Assembly: GCA_951812345.1 (NCBI GenBank)
Contig: OX638295.1
Location: 1,126,759-1,190,758 of the forward strand
Source of the DNA: Rhodothermales bacterium
Lineage (GTDB): Bacteria > Bacteroidota > Rhodothermia > Rhodothermales > VXPQ01
Direction: 5' to 3'
Length of the DNA stretch: 64,000 nt
The notes under the pieces were generated by a model that was not told where the DNA came from, did not search any database, and saw nothing but the letters and a program-made list of their open reading frames with translations. Positions 5,404 through 59,373 of the stretch are shown here, piece by piece. The position numbers and the translations under genes are program-made. Every line of letters begins with the position of its first letter. Within the stretch, counting starts at the first letter, position 1.

Positions 5404-5626
5404 AAGGATACTCTGGCCAAAACCGCTTCGCTCAGCGCTTCACGTTCGTGTAAAAAACACTGCGAATTCGGGGCGTCGCGGATGTGACGCGCCCTTCGGG
5501 AGGCTGCGAGAAGCACGCTGGCCGTGTCATTCCTCATTATGTGGGGCCTGCCACACTGCTTCGTCATTCCTTGCCAGCGCACCCCTCTCAGTCTCTGAAT
5601 TTCGTGGATTTAATCAGAGTATCCTT
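5404..5626 (+). repeat. Dispersed intergenic repeat, near-full-length copy A
   Basis: Begins AAGGATACTCTGGCCAAAAC and ends TTAATCAGAGTATCCTT, which are inverted terminal motifs. The body carries GCGCTTCACGTTCG, GCGCCCTTCGGGAGGCTGCG, and a long core beginning GCTGGCCGTGTCATTCCTCA and ending CGTCATTCCTTGCCAGC. The same order recurs in the copies at 9015 and 36518. Together with the nested palindrome at 5266-5308 it accounts for most of the 616-bp gene-free gap; I see nothing coding in the remainder. Confidence 0.85.
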
Positions 5627-8993: not shown

Positions 8994-9014
8994 GTCGGCA
9001 ATTTCCAATATCTT

Positions 9015-9270
9015 AAGGATACTCTGATCAAAACCACTTCGTTCAGCGCTTCACGTTCGCAACGCCCCGAATTCGCATATTTCCCGCTGATTCCGATGAT
9101 AAAATCATGATATCCTGTACTTGCGAACGTGAAGCGCCCTTCGGGAGGCAGAGAGGGGCACGCTGGCCGTGTCATTCCTCATTATGTGGGGCCTGCCACA
9201 TTGCTTCGTCATTCCTTGCCAGCGCACCCCTCGCAAGCCTCTGAACTTCTCGAACTTAATCAGAGTATCC
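9015..9270 (+). repeat. Dispersed intergenic repeat, near-full-length copy B
   Basis: Starts AAGGATACTCTGATCAAAAC and ends TTAATCAGAGTATCC, four bases before the ThuA start. It contains the inverted arms GCGCTTCACGTTCGCA (about 9047) and TGCGAACGTGAAGCGC (about 9123), so the left third can fold into a long hairpin. The right part is the conserved core beginning with GCTGGCCGTGTCATTCC and ending with CTTGCCAGC. Confidence 0.85.
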
Positions 9271-9274
9271 CTAA

Positions 9275-10123
9275 ATGGACACTATGAAGAACGAAGAAAC
9301 AGTGCGACGAAGACATACCTCCCGCCTGTCCGCAATCTTTCTCCTCGCAGGCTTGCTTGCGGCAGGATCGGCCCTTGTTGGGCAACCGGCCGTTGCGCAG
9401 GACCGGAGCGACGCACAGGACCAGGCCGTAGCGCAGGACACGGACGATCTTTCCGTCCTTGTTTTCAGCAAAACGGCGGTATTCCGTCACCGCTCCATCG
9501 AGGATGGCGCCCAGGCGCTTCGGGAGATCGGCGAAGAGAATGGTTTCTCGGTCACGCACACGGAAGACAGTACGGCGTTTGCCTGGCCGGATCTGGCCGG
9601 CTACGGCGCGGTGGTGTTTCTGAACACGACGGGCGATGTGCTGAATGACGAGCAGCAGGCGGCTTTTGAACAGTACATTCAGGGTGGCGGCGGGTATGTC
9701 GGCATCCATGCGGCGTCGGATACCGAATACGGCTGGGCCTGGTACGGCGAGCTTGTGGGCGCCTATTTCGCCAGCCATCCGCACATTCAGGAGGCCGATA
9801 TCGAAGTAGTCGACCGGGAGTTTCCCGCCACGGCGCATCTGCCGGAGACCTGGACGCGCACGGACGAATGGTACGATTACAAGGCGAACCCGCGCGGCAA
9901 TGTCCACGTGCTGGCTGTGCTCATTGAAGAAAGTTACGAGGGAGGCAAGATGGGCGACGATCATCCGATCGCATGGGCGCACGAATACGATGGCGGGCGC
10001 GCCTTTTATACCGGCGGCGGGCATACCTCGGAAAGCTACGAGGAGCCGCTGTTCCGCGAGCACTTGCTCCAGGCCATTCTGTGGGCGGCGGGCCGCGTGG
10101 ACGGGGACGTCAGCATGGACTGA
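9275..10123 (+). CDS. ThuA-domain secreted protein (duplicate of the next gene's N-terminus)
   Basis: A 282-aa protein. A signal peptide (LSAIFLLAGLLAAGSALVG...AVAQ) is followed by an Asp/Gln linker and one ThuA (trehalose-utilisation-like, class I glutamine-amidotransferase-like) domain at about 57-275. That domain includes FLNTTGDVLND, GGGYVGIHAASDTEY and GGHTSESYEEPLFREHLLQA. ThuA in rhizobia is linked to conversion of trehalose and related disaccharides via 3-keto forms. Nucleotides 9430-10110 are highly similar to 10315-10993 and the last 90 bases are essentially identical, so the gene arose by duplication of the ThuA part of its neighbour and ends immediately after it. A second ATG lies three codons in. 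Confidence 0.85.
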   Translation: MDTMKNEETVRRRHTSRLSAIFLLAGLLAAGSALVGQPAVAQDRSDAQDQAVAQDTDDLSVLVFSKTAVFRHRSIEDGAQALREIGEENGFSVTHTEDSTAFAWPDLAGYGAVVFLNTTGDVLNDEQQAAFEQYIQGGGGYVGIHAASDTEYGWAWYGELVGAYFASHPHIQEADIEVVDREFPATAHLPETWTRTDEWYDYKANPRGNVHVLAVLIEESYEGGKMGDDHPIAWAHEYDGGRAFYTGGGHTSESYEEPLFREHLLQAILWAAGRVDGDVSMD

Positions 10124-10183: not shown

Positions 10184-13100
10184 ATGCCGAACGAAGAACC
10201 AATACGGTCAGGGCAGGCGCGCCGCCTGCCCATACTCTTTCTCCTTGCAGGTCTTCTTCTGACAGGGCAAGCCTTTGTCGAAAAACCGGCTGCTGCGCAG
10301 GACCGAAGCGACGCGCAGGACGATGCCGATCTGTCCGTCCTCGTTTTCAGCAAAACGGCGGGGTTCCGTCACAGTTCCATTGAAGACGGCGTGCAGGCCC
10401 TTCGGGAAATCGGCGAGGAGCATGGGTTCTCGGTCACGCACACGGAAGACAGTACGGCGTTCGTGTGGCCGGATCTGGCCACTTACGGCGCGGTGGTGTT
10501 CCTGAACACGACAGGCGATGTGCTGAACGACGAGCAGCAGGCGGCTTTCGAGCGGTACATCCGGGAAGGCGGCGGGTATGTCGGCGTGCATGCGGCGGCG
10601 GATACCGAATACGGCTGGGCCTGGTACGGCGAGCTTGTGGGGGGCTATTTCGAAAGCCACCCGCACGTTCAGGAGGCCGATATTGCCGTGCTCGACCGGG
10701 CATTTCCCGCCACGGCGCATCTGCCGGAGCGCTGGACACGCACGGACGAGTGGTACGATTACAAGGCGAACCCGCGCGGCAATGTGCACGTGCTGGCTAC
10801 TCTCGTCGAGAAAAGTTACGAGGGGGGCGCCATGGGCGACGATCATCCGATCGCATGGGCGCATGAATACGACGGCGGGCGCGCTTTGTATACGGGCGGC
10901 GGGCATACCTCGGAAAGCTACGAGGAGCCGCTGTTCCGCGAGCACTTGCTCCAGGCCATTCTGTGGGCGGCGGGCCGCGTGGACGGGGACGTCGGTCCTA
11001 CGCTGACAGGATCGTACGAGGAGGTCGTTCTAGACGACCATACGACCTATCCGATGCAACTGGAGGTGGCGCCCGACGGGCGCGTGTTCTGGATCGAACG
11101 CGACGGCACGGTCAAAATATGGGACCCGTCCACCGAATCGACGGTCATTGCGGGCTGGATTCCGACCTCCATGAAAATCGAGGACGGGCTCCTGGGGATT
11201 GCGCTTGATCCGGATTTCGAGGAAAACAACTGGGTTTACCTGTATTACATGCCCCTGAGCCAGGACCCGAACCGGTTGTCGCGATTCACCATGCGGGGGA
11301 ACGAGCTGGACATGGCGAGTGAGGTCATCGTGCTGGAAGTCTTCATGCAGCGCGAGATCTGTTGCCATAGCGCCGGCGAGCTTCATTTCGACAAGGACGG
11401 CAACCTGTGGCTGGCGACGGGGGACAACACGGGAGGGACCGCTCCGCGCACCGACGAACGTCCAGGCCGCGCGCTCTACGATGCGCAACGGACCTCGGCC
11501 AACACGAACGACCTGCGGGGGAAGATCCTGCGCATCCGCCCGCAACCGGACGGTTCGTACACGATCCCTGAGGGTAATTTCTTCGAGGACGACGATCCGC
11601 TTACCCGCCCGGAAATCTACACGATGGGGCACCGGAATCCGTGGCGCTACACGGTAGACCCGGAAACGGGTTGGCTCTACTGGGGCGATGTGGGGCCGGG
11701 GAATCAGTATGTCGAAGGCAAAATGCCGCAGGGGATGGAGGAATTCGGACAGGCGAAGACCCCCGGATTCTTTGGTTGGCCTTACTTCGTCGGGCCGAAC
11801 GGACCGTACCGCGATCTGAATTTCGAGACGGAGGAATACGGCGACTGGTTCGACCCCGACAATCCCGTCAACGATTCTCCGAACAACACGGGATTGCGCG
11901 AGCTTCCTCCTGCGCAACCGGCCTGGATATACTACAGTTACGGCCCGTCGGAGGAATTCCCCGAAATGGGCCTGGGGGGTATGTCTGCGGCCCCCGGATT
12001 TGTTTACCGTTACGATCCGGAGATCGCGGGCCCTCATGCGCTCCCCGAATACTATGACGGCAAGGTGATCCTGTTCGAATGGGCGCGCAACTGGATTCAG
12101 GAAGTGCTCAACGACGAGAATGGGGACGCCATGGAGATTACGGCGTTCACCCCCGAGATTCCGTACATCCGCCCGGTCGATATTGCGCTGGGTCCGGACC
12201 AGACGCTGTATGTGCTGGAGTGGGGTCAGGAATTCTGGGGGCAGAACCGCGACGGGCAGCTCGTGCGCATCGATTACTACGGGAACGAAAAACGTCCGCC
12301 GGAAGCGGTGGCTGGTGCGGAACCCACGTCCGGTCCGGCGCCGCTCACCGTTGCGTTCGACGGTTCGGCTTCCGCATCCCGTAACGGGGGCGATCTGCAT
12401 TTTTCCTGGGATTTCGACGGGGACGGCGTCCTGGACGCCGAAACGGCGACTGCCGAGCACACCTATACCGAGCCCGGCGCGTACACGGCCCGTCTTCTGG
12501 TGGCGGACGCCGAGGGTATGGTAGCGAAAACGGACGTAACGGTCACCGTCGGCAACACGGCGCCCGAGGTATCCATTGCATGGCCCCCGTTCGGGGGAAT
12601 TGCGCCGATGGACGAACCGGTGCCCTATGCAGTGGACGTGTTCGATGCGGAAGACGGCGTGCTGACCGCGCCGGGTTCGCGCGTTACCCTGCAACCGTTT
12701 CTTGGGCACGACACCCATGAACATCCGCTGCACATGCACCGGGGCAATACAGGCGCGTTCAACGTGGTGCCCGATCCTACCCACAGGCCGTATATCCTCG
12801 ACCGGTACGTACGCCTAATGGCGAGCTACACGGACTCGGGTACGCCCGCGCTTACATCATCGGACGAGGTGATGCTGTACCCGAACGTGGTGCAGGCGGA
12901 AAACCGTTCGGCTTCCGAGGGGGACAACCTGGTCATTACGGGCAACCGCCAGCGTCCCGGGTTCCCGGACGAAACCGAGGTGTATGTCGAACTGGGGAAT
13001 GCGGAGTATGTGTCGTTTTCCGCCGTGAATCTGCACGGCGTCGATGCGCTCACGCTGTACCTCGTGCCCGAAGCGGAGGGGGCGGTACAGGTAAGACTGG

Positions 13101-36517: not shown

Positions 36518-36776
36518 AAGGATACTCTGATCAAAACCACTTTGCTCAGCACTTCACTTTCGCACGTAAGGGACGCCATGATTCCATCGTTGAAATCAGC
36601 AGAAAACACTGCGGGTTCCGGGCACTGCGGGCGTGAAGCGCCCTTCGGGAGACTGCGAGAAGCACGCTGGCCGTGTCATTCCTCATTATGTGGGGCCTGC
36701 CACATTGCTTCGTCATTCCTTGCCAGCCCGCTTCTCGCAAGCCTCTGAGCTTTGCGGACTTAATCAGAGTATCCTA
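36518..36776 (+). repeat. Dispersed intergenic repeat, near-full-length copy C
   Basis: AAGGATACTCTGATCAAAAC at the left and TTAATCAGAGTATCCTA at the right bound a 259-bp element with the same internal blocks as copies A and B. It fills most of the 417-bp gap between the STAS gene and purA, ending 32 bp before the purA ATG. Nothing else is evident in the gap. Confidence 0.88.
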
Positions 36777-40968: not shown

Positions 40969-41009
40969 GGGATACTCTGAACTTCGCGGACTTAATCAGA
41001 GTATTCCAA
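40969..41009. repeat. Minimal copy of the dispersed repeat (both ends, body lost)
   Basis: GGGATACTCTGA is joined directly to ACTTCGCGGACTTAATCAGA and GTATTCC. The left end is therefore fused to the last 30 bp of the right end, and the roughly 200-bp body is missing. Confidence 0.75.
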
Positions 41010-51646: not shown

Positions 51647-54600
51647 TCAGTTGCAGATGTTGTCGCTGTCGCCCTGGAATTCCTCGATATCGCCAAGCCA
51701 TTGCTGGAATGCGGTATCTCCCGGTACGCACAACTCGTCGTCGACAGAAAAGTCCGATAGATTGCTCAAGTTGATAAACGCCGCAGGGATCGAGCCCGTC
51801 AGCGAGTTGTTGTGGAGCCACAGTATTTCAAGGTTAGTCAAGTCGCCCAACGCCGTCGGGATCGAGCCCGTAAGGGAGTTGTCGTGGAGCCACAGTTCTT
51901 CGAGGTTGGTCAAGTCGCCCAACGCCGCCGGGATCGATCCAGAAAGGGAGTTGCCCCAGAGACCCAGTACCTCGAGGCTGGTCAAGTCGCCCAGCGCCGC
52001 AGGGATCGAGCCCGTCAGCGAGTTGTTGCGGAGATTCAGTATTTCGAGGTTGGTCAAGTCGCCCAACTCCGTCGGGATCGATCCAGAAAGAGAGTTGTCG
52101 TAGAGATACAGTCCATCGAGGTTGGTCAAGTCGCCCAGCTCCGCCGGGATCGAACCCGAAAGGTCGTTTCCGAAGAGATACAGTGTCACGAGGTTGGTCA
52201 AGTCGCCCAACTCCGCAGGGATCGATCCAGAAAGGGAGTTGTCTTGGAGATAGAGTATCTCGAGGTTGGTCAAGTCGCCCAACTCCGCCGGGATCGATCC
52301 CGAAAGGGAGTTGCTGTAGAGACGCAGTGTCACGAGGTTGGTCAAGTCGCCCAACTCCGCAGGAATCGAGCCCGAAAGGGAGTTCCATTCGAGGCGCAGG
52401 GTCTCGAGGTTAGTCAAGTCGCCCAGCTCCGCAGGGATCGAGCCCGTCAAGTAGTCGTTGCCCCAGAGAAGCAGTTCTTTAAGGTTGGTCAAGTCGCCTA
52501 ACGCCGCCGGAATCGAACCCGAAAGGTCGTTGCCGTAGAGATCCAGTTTCACGAGGTTGGTCAAGTCGCCCAACGCCGCCGGGATCGAACCCGAAAGGGA
52601 GTTGACACCGAGATTCAGGCTCGTAAGGTTGGTCAAGTCGCCCAACGCTGCCGGGATCGATCCCGAAAGGGAGTTGCGGTCGAGATTCAGAGAAACCACC
52701 CGTCCGGCGTCATCGGTCGCGACGCCGTACCACGTACCGATGGCGGCGCTACTTTTCCAGTTGGTATTGTCGTCCCAATTGGCCCCGCCGGTCGAGTCGT
52801 AGAGCGCGACCAGCGCCGCTCTGTCGTTATGATTAACCGTCACGTCGAAGGACACCGTGTCGCTCGCCTCGTGCGGATCCGTCGCGGTCACCTCGACGGT
52901 CGTTGTACCGGCCGCCACAGGCGTGATCGTTAGCGTGCTACCCGAGATGCTTACGCTCGCCTTATCGCTGGCCGACGATGTCGCCGTGTAGGCCAGATCC
53001 TCGTCCTCCGGATCGCTGCAGGAGCTCGACAGATCGATCTCGACGCCCGAACCGCTCTCGTCCAGCGTCCGATCCGAAATCATATCGCATGCAGGAGGCT
53101 GATTGCAGATGTTGTCGCTGTCGCCCTGGAATTCCTCGATATCGCCAAGCCATTGCTGGAATGCGGTATCTCCCGGTACGCACAACTCGTCGTCGACAGA
53201 AAAGTCCGATAGATTGCTCAAGTTGATAAACGCCGCAGGGATCGAGCCCGTCAGCGAGTTGTTGTGGAGCCACAGTATTTCAAGGTTAGTCAAGTCGCCC
53301 AACGCCGTCGGGATCGAGCCCGTAAGGGAGTTGTCGTGGAGCCACAGTTCTTCGAGGTTGGTCAAGTCGCCCAACGCCGCAGGGATCGATCCAGAAAGGG
53401 AGTTGCCCCAGAGACCCAGTACCTCGAGGCTGGTCAAGTCGCCCAGCGCCGCAGGGATCGAGCCCGTCAGCGAGTTGTTGCGGAGATTCAGTATTTCGAG
53501 GTTGGTCAAGTCGCCCAACTCCGTCGGGATCGATCCAGAAAGAGAGTTGTCGTAGAGATAGAGTCCCTCGAGGCTGGTCAAGTCGCCCAACTCCGCAGGG
53601 ATCGAACCCGAAAGGTCGTTTCCGAAGAGATACAGTGTCTCGAGGTTGGTCAAGTCGCCCAACTCCGCAGGGATCGAGCCCGAAAGGGAGTTGTCTTGGA
53701 GATAGAGTATCTCGAGGTTGGTCAAGTCGCCCAACTCCGCCGGGATCGATCCCGAAAGGGAGTTGCTGTAGAGACGCAGTGTCACGAGGTTGGTCAAGTC
53801 GCCCAACTCCGCAGGAATCGAGCCCGAAAGGGAGTTCCATTCGAGGCGCAGGGTCTCGAGGTTAGTCAAGTCGCCCAACTCCGCAGGGATCGAGCCCGTC
53901 AAGTAGTCGTTGCCCCAGAGAAGCAGTTCTTTAAGGTTGGTCAAGTCGCCTAACGCCGCCGGAATCGAACCCGAAAGGTCGTTGCCGTAGAGATCCAGTT
54001 TCACGAGGTTGGTCAAGTCGCCCAACGCCGCCGGGATCGAACCCGAAAGGGAGTTGCGGTCGAGATTCAGAGAAACCACCCGTCCGGCGTCATCGGTCGC
54101 GACGCCGTACCACGTACCGATGGCGGCGCTACTGTTCCAGTTGGTATTGGTTTTCCAATTGGCCCCGCCGGTCGAGTCGTAGAGCGCGACCAGCGCCGCT
54201 CTGTCGTTATGATTAACCGTCACCAGGACCGTGTCCGTGACGGCGCCACACGGACTTGTCGCCGTGATCGTGTAGGTTGTCGTGCTCGCAGGAGAAACCT
54301 CTTCCGATCCCCACGTCGCAACCGTACCGATGCCCTGATCGATCGATACGCTCGTAGCATGCTCCGACGACCAGCTGAGCGTCGAACTATCCCCGACGTT
54401 AATCGTGTCCGCAGACGCAAACAAATTCACCGAAGGAAGTTGATCGACCGTCACGGTCGCCTCGTCCGTATCCGTTCCGCCGGCGCCCGTGGCCACGATC
54501 ATGTAGGTCGTCGTGCTATCCGGAGAAACCGATCGCTCTCCCGACGCCCCAACCGTACCGATGCCCTGATCGATCGATACGCTCGTAGCGTGCTCCGACG

Positions 54601-57600
54601 ACCAGCTGAGCGTTGACGATACCCCTTTGCAAATCGTGCCCGGCGAGGCCGAAAACGTGACCGAAGCAGGCCGATTAACCGTTACGGTTGCTTCTGCCCG
54701 CTCCGTAGACGTTCCGTCGGCGCCCGTAGCCGTAATCGTGTACGTCGTCGTGCTATCCGGAGAAACCGATCGCTCTCCCGACGCCCCAACCGAACCGATA
54801 TCCGGACCGATCGATACGAGCGTAGCGTGCTCGGACGACCAGACAAGCGTCGAACTGCTGCCGAGGCTAATCGTATCCGGAGACGCGGAGAAACTCACCG
54901 AAGGAGGCACATGAACCTTCACGGTTGCACGGTCCGATTTGCTTCCTCCCGGACCTGTCGCCATGATCGTGTACGTCGTCGAACTCGTCGGAGAAACCGA
55001 TCGCTTACCCGATGTCGCAACCGTACCGATATCCGGGCCGATATCCGGACTTATCGATACGCTCGTAGCGTTCGACGACGACCACTCGAGCGTCGAACTA
55101 CCCCCGAGGTCGATCTTGCCCGGAGACGCCGACAAATTCACCACGGGAGGAGGCGCTTTGACCGTCACGCTCGCCTGGTCCGTATCCGTTCCGCCGGCGC
55201 CCGTGGCCACGATCGTGTACGTCGTCGTGCTATCGGGAGAAACCGATTGCGACCCCGATAGCGCAACCGAACCGATGCCCTGATCGATCCATACGCTATC
55301 GGCGTTCGCAGACTTCCAGCCAAGCGTCGAACTACCCCCGAGAGCGATCTTGTCCGGAGACGCCGACAAACTCACCTCAGGAGGCGCATTAACCGTCACA
55401 TCGAAGGACACCGTGTCGCTCGCCTCGTGCGGATCCGTCGCCGTCACCTCGACGGTCGTCTCACCGGCCGCCACAGGCGTGATCGTTAGCGTGCTACCCG
55501 AGATGCTTACGCTCGCCTTATCGCTGGCCGACGATATCGCCGTGTAGGCCAGATCCTCGCCCTCCGGATCGCTGCAGGAGCTCGACAGATCGATCTCGAG
55601 GCCCGAACCGCCCTCGTTCAGCGTCCGATCCGAAATCGTATCGCATGCAGGCGGCTGATTGCAGATGTTGTCGCTGTCGCCCTCGAATTCCTCGAGATCG
55701 CCAAGCCATTGCTGGAATGCGGTATCTCCCGGCACGCACAGCTCGTTGTCGACTTGCAAGAGAATGAGATTGTCCAGGTTGACAAACGCCGCAGGGATCG
55801 AACCCGAAAGGTCGTTCTCACCGATCCACAGCCTCCTGAGGTTGGCGAGGTCGCCCAACGCCGCAGGGATCGAGCCCGAAAGGGAGTTGCCACTGAGATT
55901 CAGGTTCGTGAGGTTGGCGAGGTCGCCCAACGCCGCAGGGATCGAGCCCGAAAGGGAGTTGCTAGCGAGATTCAGCCAGTCGAGGTTGGCGAGGTCGCCC
56001 AACGCCGCAGGGATCGATCCCGAAAAGGAGTTCTCACCGATCGACAGGCTCGTGAGGTTGGCGAGGTCGCCCAACTCCGCAGGGATCGAACCCGAAAGGG
56101 AGTTGCGGAAGAGATTCAGGTTCGTGAGGCTGGTCAAGTCGCCCAACGCCGCCGGGATCGAGCCTGAAAGGGAGTTGTTGGAGAGAGCCAGGTATTCGAG
56201 GTTGGCCAGGTCGCCCAACGCCGCAGGGATCGAGCCCGAAAGGTCGTTGCGGAAGAGATCCAGAGAAACCACCCGTCCGGCGTCGTCGGTCCTGACGCCG
56301 AACCACGTATCGATGGCGGCGCTACTGTTCCAGTTGGTATTGGTTTGCCAATTGGCCCCGTCGGTCGCGTTGTAGAGCGCGACCAGCGCCGCTCTGTCGC
56401 TCTGAGCGTCCGCCGTCACCGTCACCGTCACCGTGTCCGCCTCGGAGTCTTGCGCCCCGTCGTTCACCGTCAGCGTGAATGTCAGCACCGAGTCCGACAC
56501 AAGCTGCGTCGGCGCCGTGAAGGTTGGCGTCTGCGCCGTCGTACTGGACAGCACGGTCCCTGCCGGAGCCGTCCAGGCGTAGGTCAGCGTCGCGCCCTCC
56601 GGGTCCGTACTACCCGAACCGGATAGCGTCACCGTATCCCCCTCGTCCACCGTCTGGTCAGCGCCTGCGTTGGCCGTCGGCGGCCGATTAACCGTTACGG
56701 TTGCTTCTGCCCGCTGCGTAGACGTTCCGTCGGCGCCCGTGGCCACGATCGTGTACGTCGTCGTGCTATCCGGAGAAACCGATCGCTCTCCCGACGCTCC
56801 AACCAAACCGATATCCGGACCGATCGATACGAGCGTAGCGTTCGACGACGACCAGCCAAGCGTCGAACTGCCGCCGAGGTTAATCGCGCCCGGAGACGCG
56901 GACAAACTCACCGAAGGAGGCATATGAACCTTCACGGTTGCCCGGTCCGATTTGCTTCCTCCCGGACCTGTCGCCACGATCGTGTACGTCGTCGAAGTCG
57001 TCGGGGAAACCGATCGCTGCCCCGACGTTGCAACCGTACCGATATCCGGGCCGACATCCGGACTTATCGATACGCTCGTAGCGTTCGACGACGACCAGGT
57101 AAGCGTCGAACTATTTCCGAGGTCGATCTTGCCCGGAGAAGCCGACAAATTCACCGAAGGAGGCGCATGGCCCGCCGGTTTTGAACGGTTCAATCGGTTG
57201 CCGCTGGCGCTCGCGGTCGTACTCGCCGTCGAACTCTTCGCAGATACCGATTCCGATACAGAAACCGATTCCGATTCCGATACCGATTCGGATTTAGATT
57301 TAGAAACCAATACCGATTCCGATTCGGATATCGACTCCGAAACGATCGGACGCCAATCGATCATCTGGTACGCATCGTCGTCCGCGAATCCCAGCAATTG
57401 CACATCGAAAGCATCCGAGGACGTTCCGCAGCCCGAAACGTCTTTCGGTATCTCCCCTTCCGCTTCGCCGGATATGGCGCCATAAAAACGACGGTGCAAC
57501 ACGGTAGACACATCCAGGCTATCCCCCTCGAAAACGATTCGTCCGAACCGACCGCCCGCGCAAACGGCTTTTCTCCACCCAATATCGTTATAGATCGATA

Positions 57601-58168
57601 TATCCTCAAGGATATGCGTCCTGGCCCCGATGGCCTGGGACGTAATAGCGATATCGCCGTTATCCCATGTGAAATACGTATCGACATCGACAGCGGAGGG
57701 CAAAAGGACCAGCAACGCATCGCCTCTCGCAGGACTATCGAAAGAGAGGGCGTACAAAGCATCCCGTCCAAGCGCGGGAACGCCTCCCTCTCCATGGATA
57801 TCTACCCCCTCCGAATGCGCGGCCCCCCAGTGGTATATCGTACCCTTCGCAGGTATACCGAGCGTAGCGTAACCGGTCTCGTTATAATCCGTATGCCAGG
57901 ATTTGACATGTACGCGCACGCTATCCGGATTGCCGTCGGCGCTCAAGATCCGACCCAAAAGCGCATACCGATCCAGGGAAGACGCGCCCTCTCCTGGAAC
58001 GCCGCCTGCACGGGCCGTACTGTCCCCGACGGCGACACGCGCATTAGCCGCCGCAGACGGATCGACATCGTCCAGGCCCGTCAGCGCCCCGTCGTCGCAC
58101 GCGCTCAGCGTCAAGAGCGAGACCGTTATAGCCGCCATGCCCGCGACGATCCAGGATATAGTTCTCAT
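51647..58168 (-). CDS. Giant lipoprotein with Ig-like/PKD modules and three plant-type leucine-rich-repeat blocks
   Basis: A 2173-aa cell-surface protein with a GGAG ribosome-binding site before ATG 58168. The lipoprotein signal (VSLLTLSAC) is followed by a unique N-terminal domain (about 40-270), a Ser/Glu-rich linker (SESVSESESVSVSESVSA), two Ig-like repeats, a PKD-like domain (about 495-585) and LRR block 1 (7 units). A cadherin-like module, five Ig-like repeats, LRR block 2 (12 units), another cadherin-like module and LRR block 3 (13 units) then follow. The LRR consensus NL..L.L..NSLSGSIPA.L is the plant-specific type. Each block starts NDRAALVALYDSTGGANW and closes in a Cys-containing cap (ELCVPGDTAFQQWLGD). 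It is likely an adhesin or binding protein. Confidence 0.9.
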   Translation of the reverse strand: MRTISWIVAGMAAITVSLLTLSACDDGALTGLDDVDPSAAANARVAVGDSTARAGGVPGEGASSLDRYALLGRILSADGNPDSVRVHVKSWHTDYNETGYATLGIPAKGTIYHWGAAHSEGVDIHGEGGVPALGRDALYALSFDSPARGDALLVLLPSAVDVDTYFTWDNGDIAITSQAIGARTHILEDISIYNDIGWRKAVCAGGRFGRIVFEGDSLDVSTVLHRRFYGAISGEAEGEIPKDVSGCGTSSDAFDVQLLGFADDDAYQMIDWRPIVSESISESESVLVSKSKSESVSESESVSVSESVSAKSSTASTTASASGNRLNRSKPAGHAPPSVNLSASPGKIDLGNSSTLTWSSSNATSVSISPDVGPDIGTVATSGQRSVSPTTSTTYTIVATGPGGSKSDRATVKVHMPPSVSLSASPGAINLGGSSTLGWSSSNATLVSIGPDIGLVGASGERSVSPDSTTTYTIVATGADGTSTQRAEATVTVNRPPTANAGADQTVDEGDTVTLSGSGSTDPEGATLTYAWTAPAGTVLSSTTAQTPTFTAPTQLVSDSVLTFTLTVNDGAQDSEADTVTVTVTADAQSDRAALVALYNATDGANWQTNTNWNSSAAIDTWFGVRTDDAGRVVSLDLFRNDLSGSIPAALGDLANLEYLALSNNSLSGSIPAALGDLTSLTNLNLFRNSLSGSIPAELGDLANLTSLSIGENSFSGSIPAALGDLANLDWLNLASNSLSGSIPAALGDLANLTNLNLSGNSLSGSIPAALGDLANLRRLWIGENDLSGSIPAAFVNLDNLILLQVDNELCVPGDTAFQQWLGDLEEFEGDSDNICNQPPACDTISDRTLNEGGSGLEIDLSSSCSDPEGEDLAYTAISSASDKASVSISGSTLTITPVAAGETTVEVTATDPHEASDTVSFDVTVNAPPEVSLSASPDKIALGGSSTLGWKSANADSVWIDQGIGSVALSGSQSVSPDSTTTYTIVATGAGGTDTDQASVTVKAPPPVVNLSASPGKIDLGGSSTLEWSSSNATSVSISPDIGPDIGTVATSGKRSVSPTSSTTYTIMATGPGGSKSDRATVKVHVPPSVSFSASPDTISLGSSSTLVWSSEHATLVSIGPDIGSVGASGERSVSPDSTTTYTITATGADGTSTERAEATVTVNRPASVTFSASPGTICKGVSSTLSWSSEHATSVSIDQGIGTVGASGERSVSPDSTTTYMIVATGAGGTDTDEATVTVDQLPSVNLFASADTINVGDSSTLSWSSEHATSVSIDQGIGTVATWGSEEVSPASTTTYTITATSPCGAVTDTVLVTVNHNDRAALVALYDSTGGANWKTNTNWNSSAAIGTWYGVATDDAGRVVSLNLDRNSLSGSIPAALGDLTNLVKLDLYGNDLSGSIPAALGDLTNLKELLLWGNDYLTGSIPAELGDLTNLETLRLEWNSLSGSIPAELGDLTNLVTLRLYSNSLSGSIPAELGDLTNLEILYLQDNSLSGSIPAELGDLTNLETLYLFGNDLSGSIPAELGDLTSLEGLYLYDNSLSGSIPTELGDLTNLEILNLRNNSLTGSIPAALGDLTSLEVLGLWGNSLSGSIPAALGDLTNLEELWLHDNSLTGSIPTALGDLTNLEILWLHNNSLTGSIPAAFINLSNLSDFSVDDELCVPGDTAFQQWLGDIEEFQGDSDNICNQPPACDMISDRTLDESGSGVEIDLSSSCSDPEDEDLAYTATSSASDKASVSISGSTLTITPVAAGTTTVEVTATDPHEASDTVSFDVTVNHNDRAALVALYDSTGGANWDDNTNWKSSAAIGTWYGVATDDAGRVVSLNLDRNSLSGSIPAALGDLTNLTSLNLGVNSLSGSIPAALGDLTNLVKLDLYGNDLSGSIPAALGDLTNLKELLLWGNDYLTGSIPAELGDLTNLETLRLEWNSLSGSIPAELGDLTNLVTLRLYSNSLSGSIPAELGDLTNLEILYLQDNSLSGSIPAELGDLTNLVTLYLFGNDLSGSIPAELGDLTNLDGLYLYDNSLSGSIPTELGDLTNLEILNLRNNSLTGSIPAALGDLTSLEVLGLWGNSLSGSIPAALGDLTNLEELWLHDNSLTGSIPTALGDLTNLEILWLHNNSLTGSIPAAFINLSNLSDFSVDDELCVPGDTAFQQWLGDIEEFQGDSDNICN
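51651..52844. repeat. LRR block 3, part of a near-identical tandem duplication
   Basis: This segment matches 53103-54224 almost base for base: offset 1452 bp for most of its length and 1380 bp at its far end. The difference is one extra 72-bp (24-residue) LRR unit. Scattered one-base changes (for example glycine-codon swaps CCG/CAG) are the only other differences. Confidence 0.9.
53103..54224. repeat. LRR block 2, partner of the tandem duplication
   Basis: Encodes 12 plant-type LRR units in the same order as block 3 (51651-52844), lacking the unit found at 52590-52661. The adjoining cadherin-like module at 52845-53102 also has a close copy at 55396-55655. Confidence 0.9.
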
Positions 58169-58394: not shown

Positions 58395-58979
58395 TCAGTT
58401 TTCATTCGAGGACGTAACCTACTAAAGCCGGACGAAAAAGACGCGTAACCAGCGATTTCTCGAACAGATGGACACGGTGCTACCATGGAAGGCTTTTTTT
58501 CGGAGTTGGAGCCTTTTTATCCGCAGGGGGGCCGTCCTCCGGTCGGTCTTGAGACGATGCTTCGGGTCTACTTCATGCAGCAATGGTTCGGGCATTCGGA
58601 TCCGGGCATGGAAGACGCTATGCACGACGTGACGAGGATGGAGCAGTGTCTTCACGGCGAGGAGAAGGAGATTTACGGCGACAAGGGCTACGCGTGCCGA
58701 AAGCGCAAGGAGCAGGCCGAGTCGCAAGGCGTCGCCTGGCGGGTGCTGCGCAAGGCGGCCAGAGGCAGGAAACTGATATGCGCGGACGCTTCGTTCAATC
58801 GCAAGAGCAACCGCACTCGTGCTCGCGTAGAACATCCCTTCGGCGTGGTCAAGCATCTTTGGGGTTACCGCAAGACGCGCTACCGGGGTTTGCGCAAGAA
58901 CGCGGCGCAGGTCTATACGCTGTTTGCGCTGGCGAATTTCTACATGGCGCGCAAGAAATTGATAGCTGTCGCGGGATAG
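58357..58979 (+). pseudogene. IS5-family transposase relic (premature stop, frameshift, internal deletion)
   Basis: The N-terminal part reads from ATG 58357 through FSFEDVTY, then hits a stop. After it the same gene continues as SRTKKTRNQRFLEQMDTVLP, then shifts frame at a run of seven T (58494-58500) into FFSELEPFYPQGGRPPVGLE. After the conserved FMQQWFGHSDPGMEDAMHDV it jumps (about 58645) to LHGEEKEIYGDKGYACRKRK. Roughly 130 residues, including two of the three DDE catalytic positions, are therefore missing. The C-terminal REHPFGVVKHLWGYRKTRYR-like segment (NRTRARVEHPFGVVKHLWGY) is intact. It is non-functional; about 164 residues are still open from 58485. Confidence 0.85.
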
Positions 58980-59130
58980 GTATGCCCGGGCGCCCCGTTT
59001 CGAGGCGTTCGGGACGCTAAAATGCAACAATATGGCAGATTCGGCCTTGAATCCGGCCCCTGACAGCCCTTTTCTAACCTCAAATCGCCCTTACCGGACC
59101 TCGAATCTTCAATTCGACTCCCAATGCCGG

Positions 59131-59326
59131 ATTGATCAGAGTATCCTAAACTTGTACATACTGCGGATTCGGCGCGTCGCGGGCGTGAAGCGCCCTTCGG
59201 GTAGGCTGCGAGGGGCACGCTGGCCGCGTCATTCCTCATTATGTGGTGCCTGCCACGCTGCTTCGTCATTCCTTGCCGGCGCACCCCCCGCAGCCTCTGA
59301 ACTTCTCGGACTTCATCAGAGTATCC
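59131..59326 (+). repeat. Dispersed intergenic repeat, copy E (left end missing)
   Basis: A solo inverted end (GATCAGAGTATCCTA, 59134-59148) precedes the right two thirds of the repeat (GCGTGAAGCGCCCTTCGGGT, then the GCTGGCCGCGTCATTCC core), which ends CATCAGAGTATCC 48 bp before the HU start. It accounts for half of the 394-bp gap after the IS5 relic; the other half shows nothing recognisable. Confidence 0.8.
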
Positions 59327-59373
59327 ATGGGCATACACGTATCGCACTCTTTCTGAAACAACCTTCCACGACG

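Follow-up and report, generated by a model that had tools for sequence, protein, structure and literature searches.

The repeat at positions 9017-9270 of the window, that is, of the whole 64,000-nucleotide stretch of DNA analysed here, is a mobile MITE. The explanation that best accounts for its features, and in which moderate confidence can be placed, is that the element would be moved in trans by an IS5-family transposase, and that its inner hairpin hp2 would be selected as a folded single strand, likeliest as minus-strand RNA. A first-pass annotation of this DNA had set a decaying MITE against a functional RNA as alternatives; the folded body, the conserved core and covariation have all been found, and the alternative itself falls, the element being a mobile MITE.

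The element and its predicted fold

The genome containing the window (G000) consists of one contig of 2,817,622 bases, and five sister genomes (G001-G005) have been compared with it, G003 being complete and the other four being drafts. Read directly from the sequence, window positions 9017-9270 constitute a 254-bp element with the ends GGATACTCTGATCA and TAATCAGAGTATCC; position 9015, annotated at first as its start, falls within the target duplication. In the predicted fold, both ends pair in a terminal stem closing a three-way junction, inside which lie the hairpins hp1 (9046-9137) and hp2 (about 9145-9240). The parts of this copy, called the query copy below, are:

9013-9016, no strand: left copy of the target duplication, TTAA, identical to the right copy at three of four bases (sequence, empty sites in G003, G004 and G005, and target-duplication statistics)
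9017-9030, plus strand: left terminal inverted repeat GGATACTCTGATCA, a 14-mer that also ends IS5-family remnants
9046-9061, plus strand: hp1 5' arm GCGCTTCACGTTCGCA (sequence, folds)
9062-9121, no strand: hp1 loop, which differs among subfamilies and is inverted in that of the query (minus-strand matches, alignment, 5.5 terminal changes per column)
9122-9137, plus strand: hp1 3' arm TGCGAACGTGAAGCGC (sequence, folds)
9145-9167, minus strand: hp2 stem arm ending in GCTGGC, the 3' arm of the minus-strand structure (covarying helix)
9171-9183, minus strand: internal loop B, AATGAGGAATGAC (0.62 terminal changes per column; G.A pairs)
9184-9201, minus strand: apical helix ATGTGG/CCACAT with a 6-nt loop (covaries as TGTG/CACA, CGTG/CACG and CATG/CATG)
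9204-9217, minus strand: internal loop A, AAGGAATGACGAAG (0.57 terminal changes per column; G.A pairing with loop B possible)
9218-9240, minus strand: hp2 stem arm beginning with GCCAGC, the 5' arm of the minus-strand structure (covarying helix)
9257-9270, minus strand: right terminal inverted repeat GGATACTCTGATTA (end-pattern search)
9271-9274, no strand: right copy of the target duplication, CTAA (sequence, empty sites, target-duplication statistics)

The strong self-complementarity attributed to the repeat body at first reading is borne out on both strands, folding having given z -6.4 on the plus strand and z -8.2 on the minus strand, with none of 200 shuffles as low on either. The hp1 arms pair as had been proposed, across 60 nt (9046-9061 with 9122-9137) instead of about 80 nt; likewise, GCTGGC (9162-9167) and GCCAGC (9218-9223) form the bracket described, which encloses 50 nt and not about 55 nt. 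The hp1 block is inverted in the subfamily of the query, as evidenced by minus-strand matches of query positions 35-126 and by the alignment, and perfect hp1 arms are absent in most of 48 aligned copies. Between the arms of hp2, the direct repeats GTCATTCC occupy 9171-9178 and 9208-9215.

No Rfam family matched the window at the gathering score, and when matches up to E 10 were admitted at the query copy, only STnc630 appeared, with 12.6 bits (cut-off 55) and E 8.1. A string at the right end that resembled a hammerhead by eye was dropped as a candidate, there being no Rfam ribozyme match at gathering or permissive thresholds. Nor did the query copy yield any site resembling a promoter or a terminator.

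Copies, mobility and turnover

Two sets of copies have been used. The main set comprises 140 copies gathered by their place in BLAST searches and not by their core (48 from G000, 39 from G003, 20 from G002, 19 from G001, 8 from G005 and 6 from G004), which gave 135 unique aligned copies and 119 non-redundant ones in the tree. In an earlier set of 123 copies, 97 of them in the tree, the sister copies had been fetched with the core pattern, so core conservation is partly built into it; this is referred to as the core-selected set.

The element is short and non-coding, with terminal inverted repeats GGATACTCTGATCA; it has a target duplication and empty orthologous sites, and its ends are in common with those of an autonomous element, this parent being visible as remnants only. 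The query site is empty in G002, G003, G004 and G005, and in G001 the same gap contains its own insertion at a different base. For two more G000 copies, the gap at the sister site is exactly -4, and one G003 copy behaves likewise relative to the window. Over the main set, an exact match of the two 4-bp flanks is seen at 47 of 140 copies, where re-paired flanks give 14.2 on average (maximum 24 in 500), and the target site consensus is T-W-W-A.

G000 retains the IS5-family transposase only in pieces, which lie at four places (1585043, 1211538, 801684 and window position 58485). Ends like those of the element lie downstream of three of these pieces, where they are exact, and upstream of two, with one or two differences. 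The three pieces tested have transpos_IS5_4 (NCBIfam) as best match, each over part of the model only. Two features of the window belong to such a remnant:

58485-58979, plus strand: IS5-family transposase remnant, whose best stretch corresponds to profile positions 178-284 of 285
59133-59146, minus strand: IS-type end GGATACTCTGATCA(ATCCGG), lying downstream of that remnant (pattern search)

At window positions 58485-59146, this broken transposase with its own end GGATACTCTGATCAATCC is followed directly by half an element. The searches made in G000 gave no intact IS5-family transposase, and an N-terminal transposase query gave no match in the five sisters. PF01609 matches in G001, G002 and G003 have no element-type end within the 1.8-3.4 kb of flanking DNA examined. 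The identity of the repeat as a REP/BIME mobilised by a RAYT (Y1) transposase was considered and rejected, PF01797 giving no match in G000, where control profiles matched in 5 of 14 cases.

The 14-bp end, searched with at most one mismatch, gave 362 matches in G000 and none for the reversed-pattern control, and the window contains 18 TIR-like sites against 0.28 expected. With a covariance model of hp2, whose counts are lower bounds since 150 candidates were scored per genome, at least 88 copies were obtained in G000, at least 136 in G003, at least 79 in G002, at least 68 in G001, at least 42 in G005 and at least 27 in G004. Across the order, the same model, run under the stricter filter settings of Infernal with 36 candidates per genome scored, matched 6 of 114 genomes, these being all six of the genus and none of the 108 others; a BLAST search, in which 6 of 60 genomes matched, agrees with this restriction to the genus. 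The length of the element is nearly constant, 124 of 140 copies measuring 253-257 nt. In addition to the query copy, the window contains:

5406-5624, plus strand: copy with a shortened hp1, absent at the same site in G004 and G005
36520-36774, plus strand: second full copy, whose site is empty in G003
40970-41006, plus strand: 37-nt end hairpin, apparently arising by internal deletion; the G003 copy at this place is full
59179-59327, plus strand: hp2 half and right end, adjoining the IS5-family remnant

Lone 37-nt end hairpins also occur at G000 positions 565951, 741546 and 833578; they correspond to either end of the element and are apparently deletion products. At G000 1856267-1856741 (L006/L057), two elements lie head to tail with one end in common. 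Several draft contigs of G001, G002 and G005 start within the element, and the repeat probably breaks assemblies in the genus. Outside the genus, pattern matches (L093, L111, L129 and L154) turned out to be GTCATTCGTCATT-type spacer repeats, none of which, once folded and inspected by eye, has the hp2 stem; these intergenic repeats of unrelated MAGs resemble the core sequence without its stem.

The turnover of copies has been followed over about 75 kb of gene order shared by the G000 window and G003, a stretch picked without regard to shared copies. Where G003 has full copies, the window retains a truncated end (31462), the 37-nt end hairpin (40970) and a 63-nt remnant (62762). Private insertions are those at 9017 and 36520 in G000, together with three in G003, and the copy at 5406 has a G003 counterpart in the same gap, with many differences and an unlike right flank, so that both may be separate insertions. 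Examined by eye, the 37-nt form is the one expected for a deletion running from the CTCTGA of the left end to the CTCTGA before the right end. Taking into account that the inside was lost at three G000 sites of this stretch where G003 keeps a full copy, single copies are dispensable, and in-place selection on whole copies has not been adopted as an explanation.

At seven sites common to G000 and G003 (L014/L058, L047/L150, L018/L197, L008/L084, L035/L187, L040/L126 and L005/L185), 0-3 of the roughly 254 bases of the element differ, against 5.7-10.3% in the 300-bp flanks, flank divergence being 6-9% up to the very ends of the element. In-place selection, conversion, or the sampling of unmutated copies are possible reasons for this low divergence. 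The flanks at L020/L115, L032/L115 and L034/L153 are 98.7-99.7% identical between the two genomes, syntenic blocks near the window being mostly 86-92% identical, which suggests that the G000 and G003 lineages may have undergone recent exchange around these three common sites.

Conservation, covariation and strand of hp2

The conservation of each part of the element was measured as terminal-branch substitutions per column over the 119 non-redundant copies of the main set. The internal loops of hp2 gave 0.57 and 0.62, the CCGAAGG linker 2.0, the terminal repeats 2.86, the hp2 stem 3.36, the apical part 4.61, the hp1 base 5.35 and the hp1 loop 5.5. Changes in the internal loops are therefore about five times fewer than in the terminal repeats and about 9-fold fewer than in the hp1 loop, among copies that were found by overall similarity and in which badly damaged ones are under-represented. 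The claim that the core is better conserved than the ends thus stands in a set not selected on the core. What had been taken for one conserved core resolves into the two internal loops, and the apical helix ATGTGG/CCACAT between them varies, mostly by compensated pairs.

For the analysis of covariation, the minus-strand structure of hp2 was taken from the fold of the consensus and completed by hand, and pairing was counted in 130 of the 135 unique aligned copies, 108 of them distinct. Cells with both sides changed number 110 against 35.5 expected from shuffles, 0 of 500 reaching the observed value, and 3-16 in slid registers; 16 of the 34 hp2 pairs have changes on both sides, and for all five pairing measures the observed value was reached by 0 of 500 shuffles. 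With a tree-based null applied to the 92 structural pairs only, two are significant, 70-85 in hp2 and 137-221 in hp1 (E 0.003 and 0.005), and five structural pairs have p < 0.01 against 0-2 in slid registers. The same two pairs are the top scorers over all column pairs, with all-pairs E of 1.0 and 1.9, values obtained with a tree that presumes no conversion between copies and on rows many of which are related. The core-selected set gave one significant pair in the tree-based all-pairs test. Thus, the covariation analysis suggested at the outset gives a clear signal against shuffled and slid controls and a marginal one in the tree-based all-pairs test.

Several measurements distinguish the two strands. 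RNAalifold gave -55.7 for the minus strand and -39.3 for the plus strand, and standard pairs in hp2 make up 94.9% of 3671 cells on the minus strand and 88.5% on the plus strand, with 309 G.U against 74 A.C cells. When changes from Watson-Crick pairs to wobbles are counted as events, hp2 shows 58 G.U to 31 A.C (p 0.0055) against 95 to 106 in hp1 (Fisher p 0.005 for hp2 versus hp1); the hp2 events divide into 49 to 23 in the stem and 9 to 8 in the apical helix, and those of the terminal stem lean alike (45 to 21). The corresponding hp2 ratio was 84 to 32 in the core-selected set. The main set consequently shows a modest asymmetry between strands in hp2, and none in the apical helix. C>T changes exceed G>A changes 1.8-fold in unpaired minus-strand columns and 1.1-fold over hp1 (core-selected set), and the G.U excess may come partly from strand-biased mutation. 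Moreover, the arms of a palindrome can be equalised by DNA template switching, with no need for RNA.

In the minus-strand stem of hp2, the consensus tandem U.G/G.U is found in 110 and 120 of 135 copies. On this strand both conserved loops read GGAAUGAC, in direct orientation, and when set antiparallel to each other they give the series G-C, G.A/A.G, A-U, U-A, G.A/A.G, C-G, G.A/A.G and A-U. Of 130 copies, 117 keep the three tandem G.A modules whole (six G.A pairs), and 125 keep all five Watson-Crick pairs. This combination was not reached in 200,000 letter shuffles of both loops, a procedure that handles the loops as independent although an 8-nt direct repeat is common to both. Runs of this kind are in general known to form sheared tandem G.A helices. 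The plus-strand equivalents of the G.A pairs would be U.C/C.U mismatches. Together, these observations fit a structure that belongs to the minus strand.

Competing explanations and related repeats

In the favoured explanation, a MITE moved in trans by an IS5-family transposase and selected for a folded, single-stranded hp2, both GGAAUGAC loops of the minus strand would pair with each other through stacked tandem G.A pairs into a rigid purine helix, to which a protein would bind. The conservation of the loops would probably reflect selection on spreading lineages rather than on each host gene, because single copies often lose their inside, and because the core-selected set has about ten private changes per copy (960 over 97 copies) against 12 differing positions in total over ten same-site pairs, which are possibly a favourable sample. 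If the minus-strand fold is active, copies in mRNAs are expected to avoid the minus orientation. It is also proposed, tentatively and with less confidence, that the element may carry its own structured RNA domain, namely a minus-strand hairpin with identical GGAAUGAC loops zipped by three tandem G.A modules beside U.G/G.U, conserved above the ends because this RNA, or its protein partner, would control the spread of the element; this would be a new RNA class confined to the mobile repeat of one genus. The explanations weighed below overlap with these and with one another, they are not mutually exclusive, and the confidences given to them need not add up to certainty.

The context of the copies was studied with a simple codon-usage gene caller, 130 of the 140 copies having two neighbours, 7 lacking one and 3 having short flanks. 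Relative to both neighbouring genes, 67 copies are co-directional in plus sense and 22 in minus sense, 29 lie in divergent gaps and 12 in convergent ones. The plus sense in 67 of 89 tandem contexts has p 1.9e-6, over rows that are not fully independent, some sites being common to several genomes; by genome, plus to minus counts are 21 to 9 in G000, 18 to 5 in G003, 8 to 3 in G001 and 12 to 4 in G002, the last two not being significant alone. It follows that most tandem copies would be read through as plus strand. The query copy lies between genes for a 3-keto-disaccharide hydrolase-domain protein and a ThuA-domain protein, and the copy at 36520 between those for a STAS-domain protein and adenylosuccinate synthetase.

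Two observations concern other genes of the window. Positions 9413-9712 and 10295-10594 encode neighbouring ThuA domains whose DNA is 85% identical, and they look like a tandem duplication. The 2173-aa reading frame at 51647-58168 looks like that of a repetitive surface protein, with long duplications inside it and leucine-rich-type repeats of 72 bp, and related repeats occur elsewhere in G000 and in G003.

The orientation bias bears on the proposal that the element acts in plus orientation as an intercistronic RNA, like ERIC or NEMIS, operon read-through altering the stability or coupling of the neighbouring messages. This proposal, which appears rather doubtful, also agrees with the position of the copies, since 25 of the 67 plus-sense copies have their left end -1 to 5 nt from the stop predicted for the upstream gene, the mirror arrangement being seen in 2 of 22 minus-sense copies, and one copy (L014) sits between the two glutamate synthase genes, for the large and the small subunit, and directly abuts the ATG of the downstream one. 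For ERIC, effects that depend on orientation are on record (PMC2229807). However, the plus strand folds more poorly and its internal loops would be U.C/C.U mismatches, and the neighbours of 12 copies, compared by eye, have no common theme; the idea of a regulon was abandoned for that reason, three of these 12 sites having been checked in family libraries.

It is unlikely that the core is a double-stranded DNA site, in which the GTCATTCC direct repeats would bind a host factor or the transposase, the hairpin being a palindromic leftover kept by template switching. The conserved letters do include a direct repeat, and internal protein sites are known in MITEs, such as the IHF site in Correia/NEMIS (PMC2229807, in the sections consulted). 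Nevertheless, a site of this kind predicts neither one-strand U.G/G.U wobbles, nor an excess of G.U over A.C in hp2 and not in hp1, nor covarying stems round the loops, nor two repeats that fit each other through three tandem G.A modules.

That the recognised form is folded single-stranded DNA, from the lagging strand or a cruciform, as in folded-site recombination systems, is improbable. Tandem G.A pairs form in DNA too, and in 54 of 85 copies the plus strand runs with the leading strand, as judged by GC skew (hand-tallied, p 0.017). Nevertheless, IS5-family DDE transposases are not known to require folded strands, and since gene direction (67/89) is a better predictor of the orientation of the copies than replication direction (54/85), we consider RNA the likelier form. 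Least probable of all is an ordinary MITE with a chance-conserved core whose structural signal reflects subfamily history only, a view with which the many related rows and the marginal tree-based all-pairs test agree, and against which stand the roughly 9-fold deficit of changes in the internal loops relative to the hp1 loop, in copies not selected on them, and the failure of the slid controls.

The comparison with known systems, as the cited papers describe them in the sections consulted, places the element among repeats of a known kind. The remnants found here share their 14-bp ends with the element, and its 4-bp AT-rich target duplication is that of IS5-family insertion sequences and their MITEs; unlike those insertion sequences, the element has no transposase, and the searches made turned up neither an intact one in G000 nor, among the five sisters, one that carries these ends. 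ERIC/IRU elements of enterobacteria are intergenic, are co-transcribed with their neighbours, fold by pairing of their ends and have effects that depend on orientation (PMC2229807), co-transcription being predicted here, but the present element is set apart from them by description, being longer (254 bp), with a 4-bp target duplication, two inner hairpins and a loop core conserved above the ends. Correia/NEMIS elements of Neisseria are MITEs with TIRs, a stable RNA fold (predicted in our case) and an internal motif, which there is an IHF site and here a purine-rich pair of hairpin loops (PMC2229807). QMITE1 and QMITE2 of Coxiella, with about 50 copies per family, have strongly folded transcripts, some of which yield sRNAs by means of flanking or internal promoter elements (PMC5896051); here the fold is predicted, and such elements were not found at the query copy. 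CIR elements of Caulobacter have two long hairpins, a linker and a conserved motif at the loop, but are listed in that section without TIRs (PMC2229807), which in the present element close the three-way junction.

Folded MITE transcripts, their cleavage by RNases, orientation effects and MITE-derived sRNAs were thus already known (PMC2229807, PMC10969869 and PMC5896051, as far as the parts consulted extend), and searches of the open literature brought up, among the entries listed, no description of this fold or of any MITE from Rhodothermales. The kind is therefore known, and the variant consists in a conserved and apparently strand-specific inner hairpin.

The folds of MITEs are usually regarded as a by-product of their inverted ends. 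Here, the inner fold is conserved above the ends and bears signs of one-strand action, in about a hundred copies per genome and in six species. The many copies, together with comparable empty sites in the sister genomes, would make an effect on operons testable. Should a protein bind the fold, this would be evidence that mobile repeats without coding capacity can be kept for a function of their RNA or folded strand that goes beyond their terminal inverted repeats.
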